DNA of 64,000 nt. Origin: an uncultured cyanobacterium. GTDB lineage: Bacteria > Cyanobacteriota > Cyanobacteriia > CACIAM-69d. This document shows positions 19,416 through 57,610 of the stretch, piece after piece; position 1 is the stretch's first letter; each line of letters starts with the position of its first letter. The stretch is from positions 1 to 64,000 of the forward strand of contig CALGDE010000014.1 in assembly GCA_937883785.1 (NCBI GenBank), written 5' to 3'. Below the pieces are notes generated by a model. It made no database searches and was not told the DNA's origin. It saw only the letters and a list, made by a program, of their open reading frames with translations. The position numbers and the translations under genes were made by a program.

Positions 19416-20708
19416 GTGGCGGAAATAACGGTGCCAAAAACAAATCCAGTCGCTAATTTTCTCGGTCGTGTGGGGGGATTATTTACCCGAGGACGACGAA
19501 AAGAGCAGCCGAGCCAGCGCCCTGTTGGACGCGCGTTTGTTGGTACTGTCTATAGCAATTCAAGGGTTGCTCGGAATTACGACCTTCCCATTCAGCATAA
19601 TCCTGTTCGTCAGACGGAATGGGCGCGGATGGCAATGGAAATGGAAGCCCATTGCCCCGAAGTGGATCTTGCTCTGTCCATTGGAGTCAGGAATATTTTT
19701 TCTTCATTTGATGGAGACTCTGGGCGAGTCAGGGTGTCTCCTTACGCCAATAAAGAATCGGGGGAGTTGCTAGACGCTGACGTATATAAAATTGCGTCGA
19801 AAACTTTTGATCGGGTCTTCGATTACGCCACCCTGAAAATCATTGCCCGGCAAATGATCAGCTTCGGCGATTGCTTTGGGTTCTTGCTTGTTAAAGGCTC
19901 CCAAATCAACCGAATCGTCATACTGCCCCCATGGGAAATGTTTCGGGTCGAAGATGATTTAGGAGTGTTGCTGGGGTTTGAACAGCGACGTTTCTTGACG
20001 GAATCAGAGCCCCGCTGTTTTCGCCCCGCCACTGTTGCTCACTGGCGCCATAATCCTGAAAATCTATATGGGCGATCGCAGTTTTTTGCCTGCCGCCAAG
20101 ACTGGGGTGAGTACAAAGCCATCTATCACGATCTGGCAGATTCACGGAGATCATTGGCAATCAATCCCATCGTTTTTGAGCCCGAAGATGGGGCAACGCC
20201 GGGTCAAATTGACAATTTTCGAGAGGAGCGGCAACAGGAGCTAAAGGAAGATTTTCTCCCCGAGATTTATTTAAGGCCAGGCATTAAAAAAGTGTCGCGA
20301 CTGGCATCTGGGTCCCCAGATTTAAGCGGGTTGCTGAATGATTTAAATTCGCGGCGGCTGGCAATCATCCGAGCCAGTGAGGAGCCCATTTGGCTATTCC
20401 CCGGCTTTGAGACTACGGGCGCACGGGATATTTCAGGGCAGCCTGCTATGTCCAACGCTCGCCAGGTGAATGATCGCCGCCAGGAGCTGACGGAAGGACT
20501 CCGCCAGGTATTGCTCACCGACTTAAGGCTTCAGCTTGGCTTGCAGGAATTTGCTCGACGGGGCGCGGACCAACTTCGAATTGAATGGCCCGAGTTCTTT
20601 GTGGATACCCACGCCCAATCGTCTCGACAGCAGGAGGACCGGGACACCACCAGCCCCGTCAACATAGAAGCCGCCATTGGCGATGAGGTAGAAAAATGCC
20701 TGCCTTAG
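19416..20708 (+). CDS. Portal protein
   Basis: The 430-residue protein has the features expected for a dodecameric portal through which DNA enters the capsid: a basic, Pro-rich N-terminus, a central block with VAHWRHNPENLYGRSQFF (the 'WH...NPxxxYGxS' signature of portal proteins), then a helix-rich stem and crown region (SRRLAIIRASEEPIWLFPG, then RQELTEGLRQVLLTDLRLQLGLQ in pieces). It starts with GTG and overlaps the next gene by 13 bases. Terminase large subunit is encoded 18 kb away on the other strand, unusual for a phage. Confidence 0.75.
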   Translation: MAEITVPKTNPVANFLGRVGGLFTRGRRKEQPSQRPVGRAFVGTVYSNSRVARNYDLPIQHNPVRQTEWARMAMEMEAHCPEVDLALSIGVRNIFSSFDGDSGRVRVSPYANKESGELLDADVYKIASKTFDRVFDYATLKIIARQMISFGDCFGFLLVKGSQINRIVILPPWEMFRVEDDLGVLLGFEQRRFLTESEPRCFRPATVAHWRHNPENLYGRSQFFACRQDWGEYKAIYHDLADSRRSLAINPIVFEPEDGATPGQIDNFREERQQELKEDFLPEIYLRPGIKKVSRLASGSPDLSGLLNDLNSRRLAIIRASEEPIWLFPGFETTGARDISGQPAMSNARQVNDRRQELTEGLRQVLLTDLRLQLGLQEFARRGADQLRIEWPEFFVDTHAQSSRQQEDRDTTSPVNIEAAIGDEVEKCLP

Positions 20709-26927: not shown

Positions 26928-29900
26928 TTAGTACCCAGCTCGCGAATACGCTTTTAGGGCGCGGAACATTTCATCATCTGGATTGTCCCACCGATTAAAG
27001 GTGAATGACGGTGCTGACACCTTAGTGGGTCCACCTCGGTTGCTGAGCTTGCGGTCAATGCTGTCTAGGGTTTTCTGCATTCTACGGACATCACTGCCGG
27101 TAAAACCGCTGTGGGGGACGGTGGCTGTAGGGGCGACGATATTGGCAGCGATCGCCGGCAGCTGCATGTGAATTGATTGCTGCACCGCTTTGATAGAATC
27201 TCGCCGGCTTAGGACACGTCCATTCCTGGGGAAGGTCACCAACTCGGGTCCAAACTCCCCAACCCATGCGGTTTCTCCTGCGGTAACTGCACCACCTCGA
27301 AATAATCCGCGAACTTGTGATTGCGCATTACGAGCGGAGCCTGCGGACGACCGAAGTGTTCCTTCTAGGGCGGCGGCTCTGTCCAAGGTCTCCCCTAGGT
27401 TCGAGATGTCGGTGCTTTCTAGGATTCGCTTAACCTGCTCGGCATTTTCCTTGGTTAGGCGATCGCGAGTCTCCTGGGCAGTCTTCTCCAGGTCCAGCAT
27501 GTCCTTCTTATGCTGGGCTTCCAATTTTCGTTCATTATCCTCAAACGCCTTTTGCTTTAGCTCCTGCTCGTCCTCAAATCGTCGCTTTTCATCACGCAAT
27601 TGATTTTCAAATTCACGCTTCTGATCAGTGATTGCCTGCTCTGATTGCAGCTTGCGCTGCTCCAGCTCATCTTCAAACGCACGCTTCCGAACTTCCAGTT
27701 TTTCCTCTAACTGCTCCTTCTTAATCGCTAGATCATCTTCAAACGTCTTTTTGGCTTCAGCCTGTTCCTCCTCGAAAGTCCGCTTCTGGCTTTCAATTTC
27801 TTGCTCAAATGCCAGCGCCTCGTCGCGCAATTCCTGTTCAAATGCCCGGCGATCCTCCGCCAGCGCCTCTTCCTTCGCCCGGCGTTCCTCATCCAGCCGT
27901 TCCTCCTCCGCAATGCGTTCCTCCTCCTGCTTCGCCTTAAACGCTTCCTCCTTCGCCTGGCGCTCTTCTTCCCAGGCATTGCGTCGTTCATTCAGCCCCG
28001 CGAATAATTCTTCACGCCGCTTAGCAACTTCATCCTCCTTGGCGAACTGTTCTTCCAGGCGGGCTTGCTCCTCGGGACTTTCGGCAGTTTCAAGCTGTAG
28101 CTGACGCTCTAGCTGCTTCTCCTCCTCGCTAAACCCTTCCTGCTTTGCCTTATCCTCTAGCTCCAGCGCTGCCTGGAATGCCCGCTCTTCCGCCTGCTGC
28201 TGTTTGGCAAATGCCGCCTTTCGAGCCTCTATCTCTGCTTCAAAGGCACGCTTACGAGCTTCGTCCTGCTTATCCCTAGCGAGTTTTTTGGAGGCTTGTT
28301 CTTCATCAAAAACTCGCTTCTGAACCTCCTGAGCGTCATTAAATGCCTGCTCAGCTTGGCGTTGCTCCGCTTCGAAATTTAGCTTCGCTGCTTCCTGCTG
28401 CTTCTCAAATGCTTGGCGATCGCTCTGAAGCTTATCCTCAAACCTCTGCTTGTCCGCCGCAATATCTGCCTCGATCTGGCGCTTCTGGGCAGCGATATCG
28501 TCCTCAAATGCCTGCGTCTTTGATCGTTGCGCATCCTCAAATGCTTCTTGCTCCGATTCCCGTCGTTCCTCCTCGACAAATTTACGGTTCTCCTTGCCCT
28601 GCTGAACATTCGCCTCAATGTCGATTTTTTGCTTGGCAAAGCGATCATCAAACTCTTTCTGTAAGCCCTTCAACGCCTCTTCTGCTGGGTCTGTATCAGC
28701 GTCTACCTCCAGGGTTGCCGATAGTTGCGCCAGAGCATCCTGCTCCGATAGTCCGCCCGAAATCAACTCATCAAGCTGCCCCTGTAATTCCTCAATGGAC
28801 TTACCTGATCGCTTCGCCATATCGTCCAGGGAATTGGCAGTGCTCTCCGTGGCTTCCCCTGCACCCCCTTGCAGCCGCTTTAAGACAGCCTGAAGATTTT
28901 CAATCTCCTTCCGAGCCTCGTCCGTATCCACCTTTTCCAGTTCGGAGATTGCCAACTCTATCTCCTTTATGGTTTGCCCAGCTTCCTTTTGGAATTGAGC
29001 AAACTGCTCTGGGCTTAAATCCTCCGCCGTCTTCTTCCCGACCACTCCGTACTTCGACAACAATCCAACCCCGTCTTCTAGGATTGGATTCGCTTTTTCA
29101 AGGATTTCCTGCCATTTCAGTTGTGCCTGTTGGTTCTCTAGCTGCTCCTGGCTGACAACTCCAAAGGATTGCCCATATTTTTGAACTTGCTCTGAAGCCT
29201 CATCTGTAAGCCCCAGAAACTCGGCGAAGGACTGCTGAATATCCGCGAGCCCCTGTCCTAGCGCTCCGAAAATATCTCCCTCTGCCAACAAATCCAGGGC
29301 TGATTTAGTTTTTTCTGCCTCTCCCCGAATTTCTTTCAATCCGTCCTCGAAGGACTCTAGAGCCTCCTTGTTCTGGAGCGCCTGCCCCGTATTTCCGACC
29401 CCCGCCTGTAATACGTCAAAAGCATTTTTTGTTAGCAATACCGCCGCCACTAGCGCCCCCAACGTTGCAACCAAAGGCAGTGCTGCCAACAACGCTCCCT
29501 TCGCCGCTACTGCGGTCGCCCCCAGTCCCGCAGACAGCCCCCCGGATGCTGCCGTCGCCCCGCCAAGTCCAGGTATTAGGGCTAGCGCCTGTTTCGCCAT
29601 AGACGCCAATACTTTTACTCCGGAGCCTACGTCTGCGGTGAGGACTTTTTGGGCGATCGCATAAGCCGTAGTTGCCACCGTCGCTGCTTTGGTTGCGGTG
29701 GTCGTCAGTAGAATTTTTGCCGCCACCACTCCCTGGCTCACTCCCAGAGCTGCGTTCGCCGCTTGCAAGCCAGCTACAACACCGATTGCCGCCGCAACAA
29801 TGGCAGTGAACCCACCCACTGTCGCGATCACCGTCTGGATTGGTGCGGGTAGCTGAGCAAATCCGCTCAAGACCGCAGTAAGCCCATTTACTAGCGGAGT

Positions 29901-32696
29901 AACAATTGGTTCCAGCGCTGAACCTAGCTGAAGAAACGCCCCCTCCAGCGCACTGTTTAGTGCATCAATGGAGCCTGATAGCCCCTGCTTCATCTGCTCA
30001 CCGGCACGACTAGCACTGCCGGCAAGATTGTCAAAGTTGTCATCAATTTCTTTGACTTTTTCTTCGGTCAGCCCCAGCAAAGCCTTGATGGCGTTGCCAC
30101 CCCGTACGCCAAACAGGGAATTAATTAGGACCGCTTTATCTCCTCTGGATAGTCCCGCCGTGGACTCCTGGATTGCGTCTAGTACCTCGGGGAACTGTTT
30201 CATCGTTCCGTCAGCATTCGTCGCCGAAAGCTGCAACCGTTCGAAGGCTTGAGTCGCTTTCTTGTTGCCTTCAAAAAGCTTGCCCATCTTGGTCGTTGTG
30301 GCAGCGCTCGCTAAGTCCACCCGGCGCAACGCCTCAGCGTACTGAGTGCCCGCCGAGCTGCCCTTGATGCCCGCCGCCGCCAATCGCGCCAAGATCTTGG
30401 TGGTGGACTCAAGGGTCTGCCCAGAGGTCTTTGCAGTGGAGCCGACAAACTTTAGCGCCTCGCCAATGTCTTCCACTCCTTGAGGTGAGGAGTTGGCGGT
30501 AGTGACCAGGATGTCCGCAATTCGCTCACTGTCTTTCGCCGCAAGCCCGAACTGGTTGATGGCAACGCCGACAACATCACCCACCTGCTCCATGGTGTTG
30601 CCGGTAGCGATCGAGGCATTGGTTACCCCTTGCAAGCCATTCTCAATTTGCTCAGCACTGAATCCAGCCCGAGCCATGGTGGTTGTAAATTCCGCAATCT
30701 CCGATGCTGACTTTGGAGTTGTAGCCCCTAACCGCTGCACCTCATCCGATAACGCCTTAAATTCTTGTTGTCCTTTCTCCGTATTAAATGAACCGGTCAA
30801 AACCCCCGTTTGCTTGATTTGGCGTTCAAAGTCGATGAAGGTTTGAACGCCTTTCGTTAACGGAGCCCCGATCGCCAAGGATAGCCCCGCCGCTCCTGCC
30901 GCCAGCTCTTGCAGCCCCGCCTGGGCACTGCGCCCCACCTTATCTAGCTGCTGGAACTGCTTCGACGTAATTCCAACTTCCTTCTGCAGCGCTTCAAAGG
31001 ATTCCTCGGCGGATGCCCCGGCGCTACGCATTTGATTAAGGGTTTGCGCCGCTTTTTCAAATTGCTCTGAGGTAAGCCCAATTTGCCCCTGCAGTTTTCG
31101 TGCTTGCCCGAAGGTGAGCCCTAAATCCTGCGCCGCGCTGGCGATATTTTGTCCAAAATTCTCAACGCTGCTTTTGCCATCCTCATACGCCGCCGCCAGC
31201 TGCCGTGCCTGTTGGGCGTTGAGCCCAAAGGTTTTGGATAGTGCCTGGATTTGTTGATCTGAGGATTGCCCCGCCGCATCCAGTCGCTTCATTAGGGCGA
31301 TCGCCTTCTCCGTCTCAACAGAGGCCAGCTTTAAATCCTGCGATAGCTGAGCCGCGCCATCGAAACTTAGGTCAAGCTGTGCCGCAACCCGTGACGTTGC
31401 CGATCCTTCTCGCTGTTGCGATCTCGATTCTCGTTGCTGTGCCCTGCCATCCTTGGTCGCATTCGCCGCCTCGACCTCTGCTTGGGTGCGTCTCTGAATT
31501 GTTTGGGCGAGCTGAATAAACTGGTCCGATGCCAATCGGGACGATGCTGCAAATTGTTCAATGCCCTGCTCCGTCAGCTGCCCCTGCTGCGCCAAGGACT
31601 TCAGCGATCGCAGCTCCCCCACTTCCTTACTGGTGATGTCGAAAGCGGTGGCAAGTTTGCGCGCTTCAACGTCGGTGATGCCCAGTAATTTGGCGAGCTG
31701 GGCGGAAGTGGTGGCTAATTGTTTTTGGGCTTGCTGTGATCGCCGTTGCTCCTGGACGGCAGATTCTTGGGCTTTAGCTCGGACACTGGTCGCCTTTGCG
31801 AGACCGGCGATCGCCCGTACACTAAGCCCCGTCTCATTGGCTAAATCTGTTAAAGCAGTCTTGGTAACGGTGCCCGACTGCACCATTGAGCGCAGTACCG
31901 CCCCCGCCCTGGTGAGATCCTTCGCAGTGCCATCAAACCCGTCAGATAGTTTGACAACTTCCTCTGCACTAATCCCTAGCGATCGCGCTAAATCCCCCCG
32001 CGCCTGGGTAAGTTCAGAAGCCTTTGATGCTTGCTCCTTTTCCTGCTGCGCCAATGCCCGAGACTGACTAAGACGCTCCTTCGCAAGGGTGATCGTCTGC
32101 TCCGTCTGGGCTACCTGCTGCTTAAGCTGCAGGATCTGTTGAGCGAGTACTTGCTTAAGCTGCTGTTGCTCGGACTGTAAGTTAAGGTCGCCCTGCTGGG
32201 GGTTGCTGGCGATCACCCCCGACTGGGTGCTGGTTGTCCTGCCGCTCGCCCCTCTCTGGGATTGAGCCGCCGCCAACTTACCTAAGTCAATGCCCTGGGT
32301 TGCTTTGCCGACATCTTCAGTGGCTTTGGCGAGCTTTTTCGTCTCCGCCGTTGCCTGTTTGGATGCTTCGCTGGTTTTTTGGGCGATCGCGGCTAGTTCT
32401 CTGAACTGGGCAGGTTCAATCCCTTCAATGCTCTTTTTTAAAGCTGCAAATTGGCGAGAAAGTTTAACGCCTTCCGCCTGCCAGTCACCCATGCTGGCAA
32501 TAACTTTGCGGAGCTGTACCTGGTTAAGACCCAGGGATTTGGCGATGCGCTTTAGCTCTGTTTCGTTGACGCCTAAGTCTTTAGCAAGCGCCTTAAATGC
32601 CTGCTCCGTTTTGATGGCAGATTTTGTAATCCCGCCAAAACGCTTCTCAATTGCCTTGCCGCCTTTGTCTTCAAAGTCGTAGCGAATTTGGGGCAT
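26928..32696 (-). CDS. Tail tape measure protein (very long)
   Basis: The 1922-residue protein is by far the longest and sets tail length as the ruler inside the tail tube. The first 600 residues repeat an approximately 80-residue helical motif (a LGI/LGL-x-x-x-x-E/Q-x-x-K/R-L-A pattern). Residues about 615-930 match the TP901-type tape measure domain (DFERQIKQTGVLTGSF, VEDIGEALKFVG, INSLFGVRGGNAIKALLG). Residues about 960-1100 are hydrophobic and may insert in the membrane during DNA entry. Residues about 1360-1750 form an extreme Glu/Lys/Arg/Gln-rich coiled coil with phased Phe residues. Four genes behind the tail tube, in the usual order. The plus-strand frames opposite are shadows. Confidence 0.92.
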   Translation of the reverse strand: MPQIRYDFEDKGGKAIEKRFGGITKSAIKTEQAFKALAKDLGVNETELKRIAKSLGLNQVQLRKVIASMGDWQAEGVKLSRQFAALKKSIEGIEPAQFRELAAIAQKTSEASKQATAETKKLAKATEDVGKATQGIDLGKLAAAQSQRGASGRTTSTQSGVIASNPQQGDLNLQSEQQQLKQVLAQQILQLKQQVAQTEQTITLAKERLSQSRALAQQEKEQASKASELTQARGDLARSLGISAEEVVKLSDGFDGTAKDLTRAGAVLRSMVQSGTVTKTALTDLANETGLSVRAIAGLAKATSVRAKAQESAVQEQRRSQQAQKQLATTSAQLAKLLGITDVEARKLATAFDITSKEVGELRSLKSLAQQGQLTEQGIEQFAASSRLASDQFIQLAQTIQRRTQAEVEAANATKDGRAQQRESRSQQREGSATSRVAAQLDLSFDGAAQLSQDLKLASVETEKAIALMKRLDAAGQSSDQQIQALSKTFGLNAQQARQLAAAYEDGKSSVENFGQNIASAAQDLGLTFGQARKLQGQIGLTSEQFEKAAQTLNQMRSAGASAEESFEALQKEVGITSKQFQQLDKVGRSAQAGLQELAAGAAGLSLAIGAPLTKGVQTFIDFERQIKQTGVLTGSFNTEKGQQEFKALSDEVQRLGATTPKSASEIAEFTTTMARAGFSAEQIENGLQGVTNASIATGNTMEQVGDVVGVAINQFGLAAKDSERIADILVTTANSSPQGVEDIGEALKFVGSTAKTSGQTLESTTKILARLAAAGIKGSSAGTQYAEALRRVDLASAATTTKMGKLFEGNKKATQAFERLQLSATNADGTMKQFPEVLDAIQESTAGLSRGDKAVLINSLFGVRGGNAIKALLGLTEEKVKEIDDNFDNLAGSASRAGEQMKQGLSGSIDALNSALEGAFLQLGSALEPIVTPLVNGLTAVLSGFAQLPAPIQTVIATVGGFTAIVAAAIGVVAGLQAANAALGVSQGVVAAKILLTTTATKAATVATTAYAIAQKVLTADVGSGVKVLASMAKQALALIPGLGGATAASGGLSAGLGATAVAAKGALLAALPLVATLGALVAAVLLTKNAFDVLQAGVGNTGQALQNKEALESFEDGLKEIRGEAEKTKSALDLLAEGDIFGALGQGLADIQQSFAEFLGLTDEASEQVQKYGQSFGVVSQEQLENQQAQLKWQEILEKANPILEDGVGLLSKYGVVGKKTAEDLSPEQFAQFQKEAGQTIKEIELAISELEKVDTDEARKEIENLQAVLKRLQGGAGEATESTANSLDDMAKRSGKSIEELQGQLDELISGGLSEQDALAQLSATLEVDADTDPAEEALKGLQKEFDDRFAKQKIDIEANVQQGKENRKFVEEERRESEQEAFEDAQRSKTQAFEDDIAAQKRQIEADIAADKQRFEDKLQSDRQAFEKQQEAAKLNFEAEQRQAEQAFNDAQEVQKRVFDEEQASKKLARDKQDEARKRAFEAEIEARKAAFAKQQQAEERAFQAALELEDKAKQEGFSEEEKQLERQLQLETAESPEEQARLEEQFAKEDEVAKRREELFAGLNERRNAWEEERQAKEEAFKAKQEEERIAEEERLDEERRAKEEALAEDRRAFEQELRDEALAFEQEIESQKRTFEEEQAEAKKTFEDDLAIKKEQLEEKLEVRKRAFEDELEQRKLQSEQAITDQKREFENQLRDEKRRFEDEQELKQKAFEDNERKLEAQHKKDMLDLEKTAQETRDRLTKENAEQVKRILESTDISNLGETLDRAAALEGTLRSSAGSARNAQSQVRGLFRGGAVTAGETAWVGEFGPELVTFPRNGRVLSRRDSIKAVQQSIHMQLPAIAANIVAPTATVPHSGFTGSDVRRMQKTLDSIDRKLSNRGGPTKVSAPSFTFNRWDNPDDEMFRALKAYSRAGY

Positions 32697-38821: not shown

Positions 38822-40399
38822 CTAGTGTAGTAATCCACCCCGCGATCGCCGCCGCACCGGTTGTTGATCGCGGGGCTTTTCGCTGTTGGATTTTGGTTCA
38901 GAGAAGCGGAATTGTCCCCAGTTGACGAATTGAGAAAGGCTATCCACCTGATCGCTGAATTGGGACGCAGGGAATAGGGTGATTTCTTCCATAAAGGTGT
39001 TTAGCCATGGGGCGCTGACCGGCAAAATTACCCGACCCGCTTCAATGGTGGCGGTAATTGATTCTGCCCGCGTTACTTTCGAACCACTGCTAGCAGAAGG
39101 GCGTATAGGGATAACTCGGATATATGCCCGGTCCTGGGGTCCGTCGCCTGTAGGAATGCCCTGCTTAAAATCCTGAATTAATACGGTGCCAGTGCTAGCA
39201 TCCTCGATCAAGATTATTTGTGGCTTCCAGTGCAATGCCAGGCTAAATGCCACCTTCCGCCCAGCAGAATACTGATGGCGATCGCGGTGCACGTGGAGCA
39301 AATGCATATTTTGCCCCTTCACTCCCCAAGTGGTGCACACCCAGGGGCAGTTGGTCGCCTTGTCCTTGCTGGCGGTATCCCAGCTTTGGAAAATATCCAG
39401 CTCTTCTAGTGGCGGTGGGTGTTGGTGAATAAACCATTCACGTTTAAATGTCCCACCTTCTCGTGGCACCGGTCGCTGCTGATGCTGCCCTGCGTAGCGG
39501 TGTTCTCCAAGCTCCCTCTTGAAGGAATCAACAACATCCTCGGGGAATCGGGCGGGATGCATTAACTGTTTCTCTTCCACCCTCGGGTCTTTCCACCCAA
39601 AAACAGTTTCTTTATCCCCTAGTTCATACCGCTGGCGAATAATTAGCCGATGCCAATCATTAGTCGCATACACATGCCCAGACAAATCATTCTGCGCGAG
39701 TCGCTGCATAATTAGCAGCCGAACAGAGATTGCCGGGCTGTTGATCCGGCTTGACCAGGAGCTGTCCCATTTATCCAAAACAGCTTGACGTTTCACCGGG
39801 CTATCCACCTCCTGGGCGTCATGGGGATCATCTATGAATATGGCGTCTGCTCGTATACCGGTGGCTTTTGAGGTGAATCCACACGCCCGTCGCCGTCCGC
39901 CTCTCGTATTCCAGAAGTTTGAAACCGCGTCCTTTTTCTTTCTAATTTCCCAATCGGGTTGAAAAGTTTTTCGATACCAATCCGACCGAATCAAATCCCG
40001 GCAAAATGTGGCATCGCGTTCTGCCACGCGGGGATTGGAACTCAAAAACAGCCCGGTCCAGGAGGGCTCCAATAACCAAAACCATGCAGGCGCACAAACC
40101 GATACGATTCTCGATTTCATTGAGCCTGGTGGCACATTAATCAGAAACTTATTCGCTCGCTGTTTGTATTTTGGGTCGCGTCTTGCGCTTCGCCAGTCAA
40201 GCAATATTTGCTCCACATGGAGGCAAATGACTTCAATGTGCCAATTCCACTCCAGCGGAGTTTCTGGCTCCAATACATGCCAAGACTGACGCAGAAATTC
40301 TGACAGGCTAGGGATCGGCGGGCGTTGCTTGGGGCGAGCCAGCTCCTGCGCCGTCAACATATCTAGGGCAAAACTATCAAACCCTTTTCCTCTTGCCAT
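38822..40399 (-). CDS. terL: Terminase large subunit
   Basis: A 525-residue packaging motor. The ATPase has Walker A VPPGSMKS (residues 89-96) and Walker B IFIDD (187-191) followed by a coupling motif. The C-terminal nuclease, RNase H-like, has acidic residues in SWDTAS (341), IEDASTG (399-400) and DQVDS (483, 486). It translocates DNA into the capsid through the portal and cuts genomes from concatemers. Its reading direction is opposite to the portal gene, and portal and terminase are separated by about 18 kb, unlike most phages. A Ser-rich tail (RRRSRGG) completes the protein. Confidence 0.9.
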   Translation of the reverse strand: MARGKGFDSFALDMLTAQELARPKQRPPIPSLSEFLRQSWHVLEPETPLEWNWHIEVICLHVEQILLDWRSARRDPKYKQRANKFLINVPPGSMKSRIVSVCAPAWFWLLEPSWTGLFLSSNPRVAERDATFCRDLIRSDWYRKTFQPDWEIRKKKDAVSNFWNTRGGRRRACGFTSKATGIRADAIFIDDPHDAQEVDSPVKRQAVLDKWDSSWSSRINSPAISVRLLIMQRLAQNDLSGHVYATNDWHRLIIRQRYELGDKETVFGWKDPRVEEKQLMHPARFPEDVVDSFKRELGEHRYAGQHQQRPVPREGGTFKREWFIHQHPPPLEELDIFQSWDTASKDKATNCPWVCTTWGVKGQNMHLLHVHRDRHQYSAGRKVAFSLALHWKPQIILIEDASTGTVLIQDFKQGIPTGDGPQDRAYIRVIPIRPSASSGSKVTRAESITATIEAGRVILPVSAPWLNTFMEEITLFPASQFSDQVDSLSQFVNWGQFRFSEPKSNSEKPRDQQPVRRRSRGGLLH

Positions 40400-48788: not shown

Positions 48789-50090
48789 CTACGATCCCGC
48801 TTTGTCCGCAGAGCGATAATCCTTATTCAGCACGAACAGCATCCGATCACGATCACCTTCAATCGTTGCAATATTGGTGGCGGCAATGATCGGGAAATAA
48901 GCACGAATAGAATCGGCGTCCATTACCTTGGTGGGCTCAGCAGCCCGAGAATATTGCATGACATTTGAGGCGGAAATCTTCGGTTGCCCATCATCTCGCA
49001 GATGTTCAGCGATTCTAATGATCGCTTCAATAACTTGCTGCGAAGACTGAAGGTTGGGAGATGGCGGGCTTGACTCTGCATCTAGTCGCCGCTGCTTGGC
49101 GCTTAGCTCAGGGTGGTGTTTCATGTAGCTAAAACCTATGTTTTGGTCAGAAGCCCAACGCAGATCATCCGCCAGTCCTACAAACCCTTTGCCCTGGGTG
49201 GACGCTAGAACAGGAGTTCCCTTGTACACAGAGTCGGGGTTTGTGACGGTAGCGATCGCGAACCTCAAAGACTGCTTAAGCGCCTCCCTGGTCACTTCGT
49301 CGGGGAAAACATTGTGGTCCTTAACCAGGCGTTGAACGGACCCAAACCCGCTCCCCTCATCTTCTGACTCACGCCCCTGCGCTACCGTTACTACGGACTC
49401 CTTCATGGCTCCACTAAGCCCGACCTCTTTCACTAGATGGGACTGGGTAATAAGCAGCACTCGGACCCTGAGTTCCCGCCCTCGACTGATAATGTCGTTT
49501 AGCTTGACCGTCAGGTTGTGAATCCCCAGATCCTTTCGAACGCTAGGGGGAAACCTGTTCCATTTGTCGAGGAGCCCGAACCAGTCATCAATAACGGTCA
49601 AGTGTGGTTCAAATTCTGGCTGAGGTTGACCCTCCTTCGCTCGTTTTGCACGCATTTTTACGCGATCGCGATAGCGACGCCAGGTTTTATCTATCACTTC
49701 CGATAGCGCCACCAGCTCTGAGGCAACCAGCAGAGTGTCAGGGTCAAGCTCACTTGCGGATTCTGGATAATGAGGGCGGTCAGTCACCAATTGATAAACA
49801 ACCCCAGGGCAGTTCTCTAGTCCTAACCACCCTGACCCTTTTGAGTCGGCGACTGTAAGGGTACCTCGTGGGAACGCGTTGTGGTATTCAACCAGGCAAT
49901 AGTGCAAGGACGTGGTTTTTCCCGCGCCAGACTTGCACGCCAACAACCCCGACAAGTCACCAACAGCTAAGTGGTACAACAAGTCTCCCGGCTCATTGTT
50001 GGTATGACGCTGGACTAGCTCCTGTTCTGGGCTGACAAAGGAGCTGGTTTCAGCTGCCTGCGAGCCAAATAGGTTGGCGACGTTAACCAT
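48789..50090 (-). CDS. HerA/FtsK-like ATPase
   Basis: The 433-residue protein has Walker A KSGAGKTT (53-60), Walker B TVIDDW (165-170) and a sensor region VRVLLITQSHLVKEVG of the HerA-FtsK type. These are hexameric motors for DNA or protein translocation at membranes, including conjugative coupling proteins. No membrane segment is present in this chain; the membrane part may come from its partners upstream. It lies at the end of a four- to five-gene operon that encodes secreted and membrane proteins. A non-conjugative use such as packaging or virion assembly is possible. No relaxase was found. Confidence 0.75.
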   Translation of the reverse strand: MVNVANLFGSQAAETSSFVSPEQELVQRHTNNEPGDLLYHLAVGDLSGLLACKSGAGKTTSLHYCLVEYHNAFPRGTLTVADSKGSGWLGLENCPGVVYQLVTDRPHYPESASELDPDTLLVASELVALSEVIDKTWRRYRDRVKMRAKRAKEGQPQPEFEPHLTVIDDWFGLLDKWNRFPPSVRKDLGIHNLTVKLNDIISRGRELRVRVLLITQSHLVKEVGLSGAMKESVVTVAQGRESEDEGSGFGSVQRLVKDHNVFPDEVTREALKQSLRFAIATVTNPDSVYKGTPVLASTQGKGFVGLADDLRWASDQNIGFSYMKHHPELSAKQRRLDAESSPPSPNLQSSQQVIEAIIRIAEHLRDDGQPKISASNVMQYSRAAEPTKVMDADSIRAYFPIIAATNIATIEGDRDRMLFVLNKDYRSADKAGS

Positions 50091-50266: not shown

Positions 50267-50869
50267 TTATTGACCTTGAACCTGTTCTGCGTTGGGGCTG
50301 GGATAGAAAACGCCTCGAAGAAAATCTGGGGTTGCCATTAAAGGACGGAGCTGAAACCAAATCATTACCGCTGCCCCAATAACGGACCAGCTAGCGCGAC
50401 GAACCCACGGAGAATTTGGATTCCCAGTCGCCTTAATACCCCAATTCACTGCCATTAAAGCCACGCTAGTAATTGCCAGGAAGTTTAGAGTCCCTGGCAT
50501 CAAGGCTTTAATGGCCATGCTTAGCGCCAATCCCCACATTCCACAGGCAGACAGCTCAATCACATTGCTTTTTACGTTATTAAGCGCTCCCTGGGCGATG
50601 ATTTCAGCACGCCCCGCCATCTGCTGAGGTCCCATCTGCGCACTCTGGGGAGCCTGTGGATATTGCGCCAGCGGGGCTTGAGATTGCTGTGGCTGCGGTT
50701 GAACTTGCTGTGGTTGCGGTTGAACTTGGAGCTGCTTGGCATCTTTAACTTTTCCTCTCACTTTCCCGTTTGTTGGGGCTTGCTGTGTCATTGCTGGTGG
50801 CTCCTCATAAGGATCTGCAAAAGGGGCGGGCGTGGAATCGAACGGATTTGTTAATTGTTTCTGCGTCAT
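50267..50869 (-). CDS. Gln/Pro-rich membrane protein, VirB2-like arrangement
   Basis: The first 90 residues are disordered and rich in Gln and Pro (repeated VQPQPQQ). Residues 95-180 hold three hydrophobic stretches (IELSACGMWGLALSMAIKAL, LNFLAITSVALMAVNW, SWSVIGAAVMIWFQL) with a short basic loop. This paired-helix arrangement resembles VirB2-type pilins, but the long N-terminus is unlike them. It shares an operon with the ATPase and overlaps the upstream gene by four bases. The role is inferred only from neighbours. Confidence 0.5.
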   Translation of the reverse strand: MTQKQLTNPFDSTPAPFADPYEEPPAMTQQAPTNGKVRGKVKDAKQLQVQPQPQQVQPQPQQSQAPLAQYPQAPQSAQMGPQQMAGRAEIIAQGALNNVKSNVIELSACGMWGLALSMAIKALMPGTLNFLAITSVALMAVNWGIKATGNPNSPWVRRASWSVIGAAVMIWFQLRPLMATPDFLRGVFYPSPNAEQVQGQ

Positions 50870-51555
50870 AGATCACCCCCCAAAGACATGGGCTGAGATG
50901 AACGGGCGGGGCGCTGTGGAGGCTGCCCCATCTGTTGGATTGCACCAACCAACCCAACAAAAAGAACCGCAACGACGAGGGTCACCCACAAATCTGCGAC
51001 AGACCATCCCCAGCCTGGACTGTCTGATTGAGATTCGCTCTTGCTGTCAGCGATCGCCCTGCCGCCGTCACCACCATGTCCATGCACCTCATTGAGAATG
51101 TGCACCTGCACTGGCGGCTGTGGTCGTAACTGCTGCTGTGCTTGGCTCTGGAGATAAGCTTCTAAATTGTTGTTGAGCCGATTGAGTTGCTGATTGCTCA
51201 TCCCGAGCTGGTCGGTGTTCTGATTGATCGCCTGGGTTGCCATACTCAACTGCTGAGTATTCTGTTGGACAGCTGCCGCCAAATTGTTGGCGCGTCCCTG
51301 GAGTGCAATGATCTGTCCCACTAATTGAGCGTGTTGATCTGAGCTGGCAGCGATCGCCCCTTTATTGAATTCCTGAGTAAGGAAAGCGCGATAACCCTGG
51401 AGCATCTGCGCCAGCTCGCCATAAGCTTGCGCCTGACATAGCTGCACAATTTGCCCATAAGACCCTTGATGGTGATCCGGGTGGATCGCAGGCAATACCT
51501 GATCAGGCGTGATTGGCACAATCCGATCAGGTGGAATTGGCACGATCTGAGACAT
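50866..51555 (-). CDS. Gln-rich helical protein with C-terminal membrane anchor
   Basis: A 229-residue protein. The N-terminus is Pro-rich, then a long Gln/Asn-rich coiled-coil-like stretch (VQQNTQQLSMATQAINQNTD), and a single membrane segment near the C-terminus (LWVTLVVAVLFVGLVGAI). The anchor sits in almost the same place as the frameshift tail predicted for the 51738-52574 protein. It may be a cell-surface or secretion-complex subunit. ATG at 51555 is used; an upstream ATG 12 bases earlier is also possible. Confidence 0.5.
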   Translation of the reverse strand: MSQIVPIPPDRIVPITPDQVLPAIHPDHHQGSYGQIVQLCQAQAYGELAQMLQGYRAFLTQEFNKGAIAASSDQHAQLVGQIIALQGRANNLAAAVQQNTQQLSMATQAINQNTDQLGMSNQQLNRLNNNLEAYLQSQAQQQLRPQPPVQVHILNEVHGHGGDGGRAIADSKSESQSDSPGWGWSVADLWVTLVVAVLFVGLVGAIQQMGQPPQRPARSSQPMSLGGDL

Positions 51556-51651
51556 GGCTCTCCTCAACTTACATAGGCAGAGCCAGCGTAGAATTATGGC
51601 TGACCCTGGATTGACGTGTTTTTTCTTGGGTTCCCGCTCCTTGACTGCTAC

Positions 51652-52574
51652 TCAGGGGGCGGATTTTTCTATGGAATGGGGACTGGGGCGATCGCTGGAC
51701 GAAAGAGAAAATACTGCACCCCCAACAACAGCCAAAATCAAGATGACTGCTCCGATGATGGCGAGACTACCCCGGCGGCGTTTCCCAGCTCGACCTCTTC
51801 TGCCTCCATTTGGAGGCGAACCTGCATATCCGCCCGTGCTTTCTCTTTAACCATGAATTCTTCAACCGCCTCTTGCCGTCCCTGCGCCCGACGAAGACGC
51901 AATCGAGCAACCCGGAGCGATTCAGCAGAGTCAACGGCTTCGGCGGTAATATCCAAGGCCTGTTCATAGCGAGTCATTGATTGCCCGCCAATTTGCTGCA
52001 TATAAGCCTCTAGAGCTCCGCCGCGAGTGGTTACAGGGGCTAAGGACTCTTGGACTAAAACCTCTCTGGCACCACCTTGAATCACAACACCATCAGCGGT
52101 ACTGAATGGCTCACCGCCGACAACTTCAGGAGTCACTGTCCGCACACTTAGCGCCGCCGCCACGCCAGAAATCCACATCTGCTGAGCGTCTTCCGGCGAC
52201 TCTCCCGGGAAGAGCTCCTCATATCGGGCATAACTCAAACAAGCAGCATTGAACAACGACGTGTATCGAGAGCCTGAACGGACCCGATCTGCACCGATCG
52301 CTCTAGCAATCCAACGCATCCACCGAGTTCGAATAGCAGCATCGCTAATTTGTCGTACCTCCTGAGTCACGTTCGCCGCGATCGCTGTTGCTGTATACGT
52401 CTTGGGGTCATCCACGAACTCCAATAAGAACGAAAAATCAGCACGCTCTCCTCTTGGGGTGTTCTGAACGGGTTCGCCGCGTGGTTCGTCCGAACGTTCG
52501 GCGACGGGTTCGCCGTCAGCCAGCTCAACAGGAGCTGCGCCCCCAAACCCTTGCCCCGACCGAAAATTAGCCAT
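51652..52574 (-). CDS. Operon-leading protein; -1 frameshift may add a membrane anchor
   Basis: The normal frame ends at 51738 (278 residues, helical end rich in Arg/Ala/Glu and a Ser-rich tail). At codons CTG GGA AAC the heptamer G GGA AAC (51786-51780) is in the X XXY YYZ register. A -1 shift there leads into an open frame of 42 residues, RRRGSLAIIGAVILILAVV then GGAVFSLSSSD to a stop at 51652: three arginines followed by a membrane segment. Without the shift, 51568-51737 would be empty. No ribosome site or start codon precedes that frame. The product would be 307 residues. It lies at the head of the ATPase operon. It could instead be a decayed gene fusion. Confidence 0.6.
51780..51786 (-). 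promoter_or_regulatory. Candidate -1 ribosomal frameshift site G GGA AAC
   Basis: Minus-strand heptamer GGGAAAC, register checked against the 52574 start: the first G is the third base of its codon. GGGAAAC and close relative GGGAAAG are known slippery sequences (the latter works in phage lambda's tail gene G/T). GC-rich sequence follows, which could form the stimulatory structure. Confidence 0.5.
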
Positions 52575-52732: not shown

Positions 52733-53053
52733 TCATCGAATTCCCCGGTCGTGAAGGGCGTTAATGCTTGAAGTTATCGTTCGAATAGAGTGAACCAGGG
52801 CAAGTGTCCACGGGACAATGTCAGGGCACCTGCTGAAGTCAGCCCCCCAGTGGGCAATGATAGTGGAAGGGGAGGTAGTCCTCCCAAGGGCTTCGCTTAA
52901 CTCCTGTGCCGCAAGCTTTTGGAACCCGCGATCGCCTGGCTGCATCCCTGGATGCTTGAGGGGAACATAAAGGTCCACAAACTCTTTGGGGGTCATTGTT
53001 GTCACTTGAGACTGGCTGCTGACCAATCTTTGCACATAGCTAAGTGCAGTCAT
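52733..53053 (-). CDS. Small HTH-like protein between two repeat arrays
   Basis: The 106-residue protein contains a helix-turn-helix-like part (FQKLAAQELSEALGRTTSPSTIIAHWG), flanked by short helices (TPKEFVDLYVPLKHPG and LVHSIRTITSSINAL). It has its own terminator and stands between two phased repeat arrays, as expected for a replication or partition regulator that binds them. No ParM, ParA or Rep motif is present. The array upstream of its start (53108-53216) probably overlaps its promoter. Confidence 0.55.
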   Translation of the reverse strand: MTALSYVQRLVSSQSQVTTMTPKEFVDLYVPLKHPGMQPGDRGFQKLAAQELSEALGRTTSPSTIIAHWGADFSRCPDIVPWTLALVHSIRTITSSINALHDRGIR

Positions 53054-55499: not shown

Positions 55500-56051
55500 A
55501 CCTACCGCGCTTAGGTATTTTCTAGTGCTTCAACGCAAACCCCAAAATCGACAGTTTTCACGTTAGTTTCCAGTGTGGGCAAGGGGTGAAGTGCTTCAAC
55601 GCAAATCCTGAGTTTGCACCGGGAACCGCCATCTGGATCATTGAAGTCCCCACCGCATTCAAGATTGCCAGGGGAAAACAAATACAAAAATATTGAAATC
55701 AGCTCCGCCAAGCCCCACCTGTAGCAAGAACCAAAGACAGGAAATGGCGAGGAAACAAAACAACTTTGATCAGGCTTGTTGAAATAAAATACTATTAGCC
55801 AACTTTGAAGCCTAGAACGATGACAGATAGGTGATCCCCGGAGACGCACCGTGTCTCTGTGAGCATCTCATGGCATCAAAAAACATCAATTCTATTCCCG
55901 CCTTATTCCTATTGACATCCGACTATTAGTTGATTTCTTGCCCAAGAAGGCTACTTTGATCGTCTTGCCTATTCGCAAAGTTGAAAACTAACTAGGGTGG
56001 GTGTATCTGCCGTCGTCCTTCGCACTAAAGCACCCTCGACGCCCAATAAAT
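55500..56051. other. Spacer without a clear gene
   Basis: A 16-bp direct repeat, AGTGCTTCAACGCAAA, occurs at 55524-55539 and 55590-55605. A weak TTGACA-like element is at 55912-55917 with no good -10 box at 17 bp. A minus-strand frame covering 55511-55849 looks random in composition. No RNA gene or terminator stands out. Confidence 0.3.
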
Positions 56052-56777
56052 ATGACATCCTCCCAACTTCTCGTTAGTAATTGTTTGGCAACCTACCTCT
56101 CTCGTGAGGTGGGCTCACCACTAAATCAAATCTTTCAGCGGTGCCTCGTTGAAGTTGGCAATGAAGTCAGTAACCAGCACCTAACTTTAAACTTTCTCTC
56201 GTTAGTAGAGTTGTATCAGCTCGCAGAGTATTCTCCGTCCCAAGCAATGCTCCAGGCGCTGGTTAGGATAGGGATGAAACCTAAAATTAGCTATTGCTTT
56301 AAGGGAGAAGAGTACGTGGCACAAGATTTTAGTTCACCCCTGCCGCCTCCTGAAGTAGTCGCGGATCAGTATCGGGCGATCGGCTGGATTGCTCAATGTC
56401 AGCAACCGGCGGTGCTAGTCATTAACAACGCCGTGGTGATGTGTTCCCCGGCATATCAAGAAATGACACAGATGTCCGCCGTTGATTGGATTTTGGATTG
56501 GCAGTGCATTGAAGGGCGGCCCATCCATGGCAATGCGGTGCGCCATCTAAAAGGAGGTGCGGAGAAGTTGCAGGCGGAGATTGAACAATCGCCCAGTAAG
56601 CAACTTCTGAATCATGAATGGCTCGCTGTCTATGCGCCGGATGATTCTGTGCGGAAGTTTCGCGGCAGCTTTCAGTACGTAAAATGGGGCGATCGCGTAG
56701 GGCGATTGTTGGTGCTAGATGGCGTCCCCCAACCGGTGGAACTGGAAGCCTCTGGTGGGGCACGGCAAAGCGTCTAA
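56052..56777 (+). CDS. Possible PAS-domain protein
   Basis: 241 residues. The second half has a PAS-like start (QPAVLVINNAVVMCSPAYQEMT) with strands and helices of matching length, ending VGRLLVLDGVPQPVEL. The first half is helical (LATYLSREVGSPLNQIFQRCLVE). A regulator or sensor is plausible. An upstream in-frame ATG 51 bases earlier is possible. It converges on the next gene with a four-base overlap of stop codons. Confidence 0.5.
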   Translation: MTSSQLLVSNCLATYLSREVGSPLNQIFQRCLVEVGNEVSNQHLTLNFLSLVELYQLAEYSPSQAMLQALVRIGMKPKISYCFKGEEYVAQDFSSPLPPPEVVADQYRAIGWIAQCQQPAVLVINNAVVMCSPAYQEMTQMSAVDWILDWQCIEGRPIHGNAVRHLKGGAEKLQAEIEQSPSKQLLNHEWLAVYAPDDSVRKFRGSFQYVKWGDRVGRLLVLDGVPQPVELEASGGARQSV

Positions 56778-57610
56778 CTTGGATGGGAGCTAATGGTGTC
56801 TTGATTGGTTGCTGAAGGTTGCGCCACGCCGGGGGGCTTCCTCCAAGCGGTCTCGCAAAACCATCGTAATTCTTCAGGGGTCAGAAGCTCCCCGTTTTCT
56901 TGCTGTAGGTCTAATCTATTGCTGGTTAGTATCCCGTACTCAACCTCATTGAGTAAGGTCTCACCTTTTAAAAGCAGCTCAATGCGATCCACTTTTAGCA
57001 GGTCAACGCCGGTAGCTTGGGCATAATACTGAGCAACTTCCACGGGAGATCGCTCAGCATGCCAGTGCTGGAATAATTCGGTGAGTCGCTTTTGAGCATC
57101 TTGAGCGGAATCAAAAAACATGGGTTTGGTGGACCTTGGTTGGGACGTATTGGCAGCTCTGCCACCTTCGGAATCCAAAGATTCGATAATGGCGATCGCC
57201 GTAGCGACCTGAATATCCCGTGGGGCACCCTTGATTCTAGCGGGTAAATTCTCCCAGAAGGCTTCCCCTACTGCTTTCCCCGGCAGCCGATCCGCCTCCT
57301 CCACCGGCATGCCACAGGCGATCGCTTCAACTACTTCCAAAGGGCGATCACCAAACAACCCCGCACAATGAAGAATCCGCAGGGTTGCCACTTTAATGAT
57401 TTTTGTTTTGCCGGTGATAAGCATCCCCAGCGCCTCCCCCTGGGGGACAGACAGATGACTGGGGACGTCTACCCGTTCAGCGATCCATAGCTGTACCTTG
57501 CTGTAACTTAGGTCTTCTCGACGCAGCCCTTCTTGGATCAGTTTCGCCACCTCCGCACACCCCTTTGGGGTATATACCTGCGGTCGTGGCTTTATGTTGG
57601 CAATGGACAC
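56774..57610 (-). CDS. Unrecognised 278-residue protein, possible DNA-binding start
   Basis: The first 80 residues look like a helix-turn-helix (LIQEGLRREDLSYSKVQLWIAERVDVP in parts). The rest is helical, with DAQKRLTELFQHWHAERSPVEVAQYY and LDLQQENGELLTPEELRWF regions, and a disordered C-terminus. GTG is the start. It may regulate neighbouring genes, but a family is not recognised. Confidence 0.5.
   Translation of the reverse strand: MSIANIKPRPQVYTPKGCAEVAKLIQEGLRREDLSYSKVQLWIAERVDVPSHLSVPQGEALGMLITGKTKIIKVATLRILHCAGLFGDRPLEVVEAIACGMPVEEADRLPGKAVGEAFWENLPARIKGAPRDIQVATAIAIIESLDSEGGRAANTSQPRSTKPMFFDSAQDAQKRLTELFQHWHAERSPVEVAQYYAQATGVDLLKVDRIELLLKGETLLNEVEYGILTSNRLDLQQENGELLTPEELRWFCETAWRKPPGVAQPSATNQDTISSHPS

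Follow-up and report, generated by a model that had tools for sequence, protein, structure and literature searches.

The window examined here, meaning the whole 64,000-nucleotide stretch of DNA that was analyzed, carries on its minus strand a putative four-gene operon. The zero frame of its gene 1 (ORF 52574-51738) is predicted to encode a soluble protein of 278 aa with a helix-turn-helix (HTH)-like region and a charged, helical C-terminal half; its product matched no Pfam, NCBIfam or PHROGs family, and its relatives in other cyanobacteria were found with profiles. Gene 2 (50866-51567; 26% identical to a paralogue at L003:2430-3194) combines a coiled-coil-like body with a C-terminal hydrophobic segment in a single frame, as an earlier, sequence-only reading of this DNA had stated. 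Its ORF is listed from a TTG, and the likely start is an ATG near 51555. Gene 3 (50267-50869) contains hydrophobic membrane segments, judging by the hydrophobicity of its sequence, and gene 4 (48789-50090) encodes a P-loop ATPase of the FtsK/HerA/TcpA type, 30% identical to a second copy in the same genome. A terminator-like hairpin (52678-52659, minus strand) immediately precedes gene 1 and makes it plausible that gene 1 is the first gene of the operon, as had been claimed, but such hairpins are no more numerous here than expected by chance, and a 106-aa gene is found further upstream (52733-53053, minus strand). A counterpart of that gene, judged similar by eye, occupies the same place in the second operon copy, where it is internally doubled (L004:7586-8200).

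The operon adjoins a prophage-like region (5000-40400) on the same 78-kb contig, with a terminase gene at 38822-40399, a portal-like gene at 19416-20708 and a gene for a 1922-aa tape measure protein at 26928-32696. Since the two share a contig, this may be a prophage beside a plasmid-type module, or a phage fused with one. Further genes near the operon (56001-57610 in the window and L004:2508-3768) are apparently common to contigs C14 and C34 of this genome, which suggests that it harbors two related mobile elements.

Near the end of gene 1, the minus strand reads GAG CTG GGA AAC GCC GCC GGG GTA, placing the heptamer G GGA AAC (51786-51780) in the X XXY YYZ register of the 278-aa ORF. Zero-frame translation ends 13 codons past the heptamer at a TGA (51740-51738). 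The -1 frame remains open for 42 codons (51779-51652) and begins RRRGSLAIIGAVILILAVVGGAVF; it encodes RRR-GSLAIIGAVILILAVVGGAVF-SLSSSDRPSPHSIEKSAP followed by a stop at 51652. A ribosome slipping at the heptamer would thus read LGN|RRRGSLAIIGAVILILAVVGGAVFSLSSSDRPSPHSIEKSAP and complete a product of 307 aa. The extension contains one predicted membrane helix after its three arginines, with IIGAVILILAVVGGAVF as the most hydrophobic 17-residue stretch. Upstream of that stretch the open -1 frame has zero ATG, GTG or TTG codons, and TTG codons are present inside the membrane segment. The heptamer, its register and an extension lacking its own start ahead of the membrane segment had all been described in the sequence-only reading, and each was confirmed. 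GGGAAAC by itself is at chance frequency and not remarkable: it occurs 968 times on both strands of the window's genome, compared with 1019 in a reversed control.

A second, diverged copy of the operon is located on contig C34 of the same genome, where gene 1 is 37% identical to the window copy over 96 aa, gene 2 is 26% identical and the ATPase 30%. The corresponding zero-frame end, ACG GGG GGA AAC GGT TAG, has the same heptamer in the same register (L004:9153-9159, plus strand), and the -1 frame encodes RLALSVLLLVIFVLGCVGGVVFFTEKPFHKPTSPVYNKGHQQ. The -1 tails are 42 codons long in both copies, whereas the 0-frame tails, 13 codons in the window and 1 codon in C34, bear no resemblance to each other. 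In the C34 operon, the region from the end of gene 2 into the start of gene 3 is duplicated in tandem (L004:9420-11424). A third homologue was identified in genome G144 by profile search (E 1e-8), with the heptamer G GGA AAG and a -1 tail that starts ARRNPYPSLLVLIFGIAVLCLFLAPH.

Relatives of the window protein were reached in two ways, by a three-row profile applied to whole genomes and through the ATPase. Direct searches with the window protein or the first three-row profile returned nothing from genome contigs, viral contigs, plasmids or phages, and when a profile built from the window, C34 and G144 genes was run against 146 genomes of the phylum sample, it had no matches beyond the window's genome. 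Sequence searches of the PDB were uninformative. A profile built from the window and C34 ATPases led to related operons in other cyanobacteria. The first genes of these operons have G GGA AAG and a -1 membrane tail in four genomes (G133, G336, G084 and G007) and A AAA AAG with such a tail in a fifth (G088). A profile of these first genes in turn matched 54 of 390 cyanobacterial genomes, representing 23 of 160 genera; named relatives include Nodosilinea, Stenomitos, Tildeniella, Phormidium tenue and Scytolyngbya.

We assembled 83 copies for examination, including the window, C34 and G144 genes and one from Leptolyngbya sp. BL0902 that is possibly a duplicate of G249; two further profile matches (G329 and G275:C66), whose ORFs diverge ahead of the site, were left out. 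A canonical heptamer is present in register in 77 of the 83 (73 GGGAAAG, 2 GGGAAAC and 2 AAAAAAG), and these 77 fall into 48 clusters at 80% identity and 29 at 60%. The hydrophobic -1 extension is likewise conserved, with a clear helix (mean hydropathy of at least 1.6 over 17 residues) in 72 of the 77. The heptamer type can vary and the tail stays in the -1 frame. We also looked for the combination among 1764 non-family ORFs of at least 100 aa, scoring a canonical heptamer no more than 90 nt from the stop together with a -1 membrane tail. None had both, compared with 72 of the 83 family copies; a single formal match among the controls (L196) turned out to be a family member.

The tail might instead be the remnant of an in-frame anchor displaced by an indel, whether a frameshift mutation, phase variation or a sequencing error, and single-base indels are indeed common errors. 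The out-of-frame layout, however, recurs in 48 clusters and many independent assemblies, and none of the 83 copies carries the tail in the zero frame, the arrangement that the sequence-only reading had associated with a local indel. That reading had also set against frameshifting any loss of the heptamer with retention of the tail. This pattern is confined to three copies from G203 (L121, L142 and L143), in which the tail is kept in the -1 frame behind G GGG AAG, still a G run; with four Gs, it is a variant slippery site. Two G188 copies lost both heptamer and tail, as an indel origin would allow. Among the other exceptions, the 0 frame of G290:C218 is shifted upstream, putting GGGAAAGC out of register; one G120 copy has the heptamer and lacks the helix, and the helices of a few other copies are weak.

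Tail sequences beyond the 0-frame stop gave a dN/dS of 0.32 in the -1 frame, compared with 0.88 and 2.0 in the other frames, across 46 comparisons among relatives that are not independent of one another. These values point to purifying selection on the -1 frame only, with the tail evolving as protein in that frame, and selection of this kind also counts against an indel remnant, an explanation to which we give almost no weight.

Codon usage at the site is similarly constrained. The glycine there is encoded by GGA in all 75 sites of the glycine type, although GGA accounts for 14.9% of glycine codons elsewhere in the same ORFs, and Gly-Lys pairs elsewhere in family genes are mostly GGC AAG or GGC AAA. 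The invariance of the GGA AAG codons at one spot is left unexplained if the tail is made as a small membrane protein in its own right, either through re-initiation or from a start codon within the overlapping -1 frame. Overlapping short ORFs are often translationally coupled, and in 20 of 77 copies an ATG or GTG does occur in that frame close to the 0-frame stop. Yet 69 of 76 tails have no ATG, GTG or TTG before the helix, and we regard a separate protein as very unlikely. Net positive charge between the slip site and the helix, found in 65 of 76 tails, fits an anchor whose body would lie in the cytoplasm, as expected.

A further possibility is that the frame changes in the mRNA, through slippage of RNA polymerase. 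Classic polymerase slippage requires long runs. The A AAA AAG variant of G088 includes an A run that could promote slipping, but the runs in GGGAAAG are no longer than three, which makes this route to a frameshifted message highly improbable. Runs of A/T have been studied in this context (PMC1088944).

We conclude that gene 1 very probably uses programmed -1 ribosomal frameshifting to yield a membrane-anchored isoform, as judged from comparative sequence evidence. Most ribosomes would terminate in the zero frame, yielding a soluble protein composed of an N-terminal HTH DNA-binding domain and a long helical, probably coiled-coil, stalk. Where the stalk ends, a fraction of ribosomes would move back by one base on G GGA AAC (in relatives, G GGA AAG or A AAA AAG) and go on to translate a basic patch, a single transmembrane helix and a short tail. 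The same DNA-binding protein may then be present in the cell as both soluble and anchored subunits, with the slippery site setting their proportions; we infer that the tail inserts in the membrane and that the two kinds of subunit mix. The proposal of the sequence-only reading that one protein is made in soluble and membrane-bound forms is plausible.

The heptamers of the family mostly belong to the X_XXA_AAG class that is prone to shifting in bacteria (PMC4066793, PMC5009743). The most efficient heptamers in E. coli are C_CCA_AAG, G_GGA_AAG and A_AAA_AAG (PMC4066793, PMC5009743). G_GGA_AAC is weak there, yet it is employed by insertion sequences (PMC4066793); frameshifting at the site in the window may accordingly be infrequent. 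A downstream stem or pseudoknot, envisaged by the sequence-only reading, was not borne out as a conserved feature: the mean folding z was -0.34 over 74 distinct downstream stretches. The window itself gave a z of -1.94 over 75 nt and about 0 over a 60-nt stretch, and its paralogue gave 0.56. An Rfam search was negative, and Shine-Dalgarno-like tetramers were not enriched (23%, against a background of 17%). The missing stimulator does not exclude frameshifting, because in E. coli 61% of heptamers cause measurable shifting even when no stimulator is present (PMC4066793). The site does have a recurrent context, (C/T)TG GGA AAG CC, and a bare slippery site seems to be enough in this family.

The window protein and the large family are connected indirectly. 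Compared at the sequence level, window gene 1 and the large family give no significant match (E 0.26, 0.021 and 0.0026), whereas the ATPases of the two sets of operons do match (E 3.5e-45). We tie window gene 1 to the family on the basis of this homologous ATPase, the position of the gene and its architecture; either the two have diverged past recognition or the design evolved twice. Relatives of the HTH part alone mostly lack a tail, and we set them aside as a separate, tail-less subfamily. Many gene 1 copies have no recognized ATPase of the FtsK/TcpA-like type within the stretch read, partly since many of these stretches are short. One contig classed as viral (L222, IMGVR_UViG_3300034630_000009) shares its frameshift gene 1 and ATPase operon with G084/Lyngbya; it is probably a plasmid misclassified as a virus.

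Structure modeling of a gene 1 relative (mean pLDDT 78.8) yields a small HTH domain, a middle part of low prediction quality and a single long helix of 84 residues (93 to 176), whose end coincides with the slip site. With Foldseek, the best match for the HTH was weak, the DNA-/centromere-binding domain of pSK1 Par (8csh; E 0.15, probability 0.98), followed by RacA, a likeness to MerR-type winged HTH domains that is suggestive only. pSK1 Par, RacA and RocS are HTH-coiled-coil proteins that partition or tether DNA (PMC11500499). They share with gene 1 an N-terminal HTH, a coiled-coil stalk and a C-terminal anchoring element (PMC11500499), but their anchor is an in-frame amphipathic helix, and that of gene 1 would be a transmembrane helix reached via frameshifting only. 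The DUF536 domain of pSK1 Par and RocS was not found in gene 1 by Pfam search. Within the family, the N-terminal HTH has been swapped among members (L148, L149, L152, L135, L134, L137, L154, L173, L167, L175 and L171), with stalk, slip site and -1 anchor retained.

The ATPase reached no curated Pfam or NCBIfam threshold. A low-confidence model of a relative (mean pLDDT 67.7) shows a RecA-like motor fold with a P-loop and matches TcpA of pCW3, FtsK and EssC (E about 1e-5); the profile match described above joins the window ATPase to this fold. The operon ATPase resembles FtsK, TcpA and VirD4-type coupling ATPases in its predicted fold but is very diverged from them.

We consider the chances about even that gene 1 tethers plasmid DNA to the membrane next to this FtsK/TcpA-like ATPase, for partition or transfer, a role to which weak structural similarity and gene position point. 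The frameshifting itself could be real and have as its chief purpose a membrane subunit that brings in the ATPase for DNA transfer, or a regulator located in the membrane, in place of a partition tether. This rival is compatible with programmed frameshifting as the mechanism, and we consider it a serious possibility, if one a little short of even. In its favor, the operon includes a coupling-type ATPase, and genes for an M23 peptidase, a transglycosylase or a lysozyme, of the kind seen in conjugation systems, occur in some relatives. In more distant plasmids (Oscillatoria, L. boryana, Tolypothrix, Aulosira and Nostoc), which contained no heptamer-plus-membrane-tail gene of the gene 1 kind, the ATPase is annotated as a type IV secretion system conjugative DNA transfer protein (Nostocales) and lies beside CyRepA1, in some also beside relaxase genes; a Tolypothrix plasmid with a related ATPase encodes a MOBP relaxase and MobC. 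Against a transfer role, the BL0902 plasmid retains gene 1 with no ATPase recognized nearby, the HTH weakly resembles a partition protein, and a Nostoc UHCC 0302 plasmid has a ParM/StbA gene (L230:7380-8495) in the operon slot of gene 1. ParG and CyRepA1 genes are divergent from the latter and upstream of it, and a DNA phosphorothioation-associated methyltransferase gene is present on the BL0902 plasmid (L107).

Gene 1 resembles dnaX, insertion sequences and the lambda G/T pair in heptamer class (X_XXA_AAG), in register and in having a C-terminal -1 extension. It differs in that the extension would be a single membrane helix on a DNA-binding protein, that the family has no conserved hairpin or Shine-Dalgarno stimulator, and that it is not a polymerase, transposase or tail chaperone gene. 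The parallel to lambda G/T drawn in the sequence-only reading accordingly holds for the heptamer but not for the gene: the lambda pair adjoins the tape measure gene, whereas gene 1 lies about 19 kb from that of the prophage and is followed by the ATPase operon. A change of frame also decides the presence of a membrane segment in arteriviruses, where a -2 frameshift product has an alternative transmembrane region (PMC5009743); that case is viral and -2, and gene 1 is bacterial, plasmid-type and -1.

We found no earlier report of this family in the open-access literature. To our knowledge, few conserved bacterial genes require -1 frameshifting outside insertion sequences, phages and dnaX. A gene family found in 54 or more of the 390 cyanobacterial genomes that were sampled seems to gain a membrane anchor in this way, and in the one record examined for annotation, the complete plasmid NZ_CP046160.1 of Leptolyngbya sp. 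BL0902, which has the same arrangement, only the zero-frame product is annotated. With odds a little short of even, gene 1 may belong to a system for plasmid partition or transfer that is widespread among cyanobacteria; frameshifting would set the ratio of soluble to anchored protein in it, and mixed oligomers would form a tether between centromere and membrane. The family offers a directly testable switch between soluble and membrane-bound forms, and a lead on how the plasmids that carry gene 1 are held or moved.
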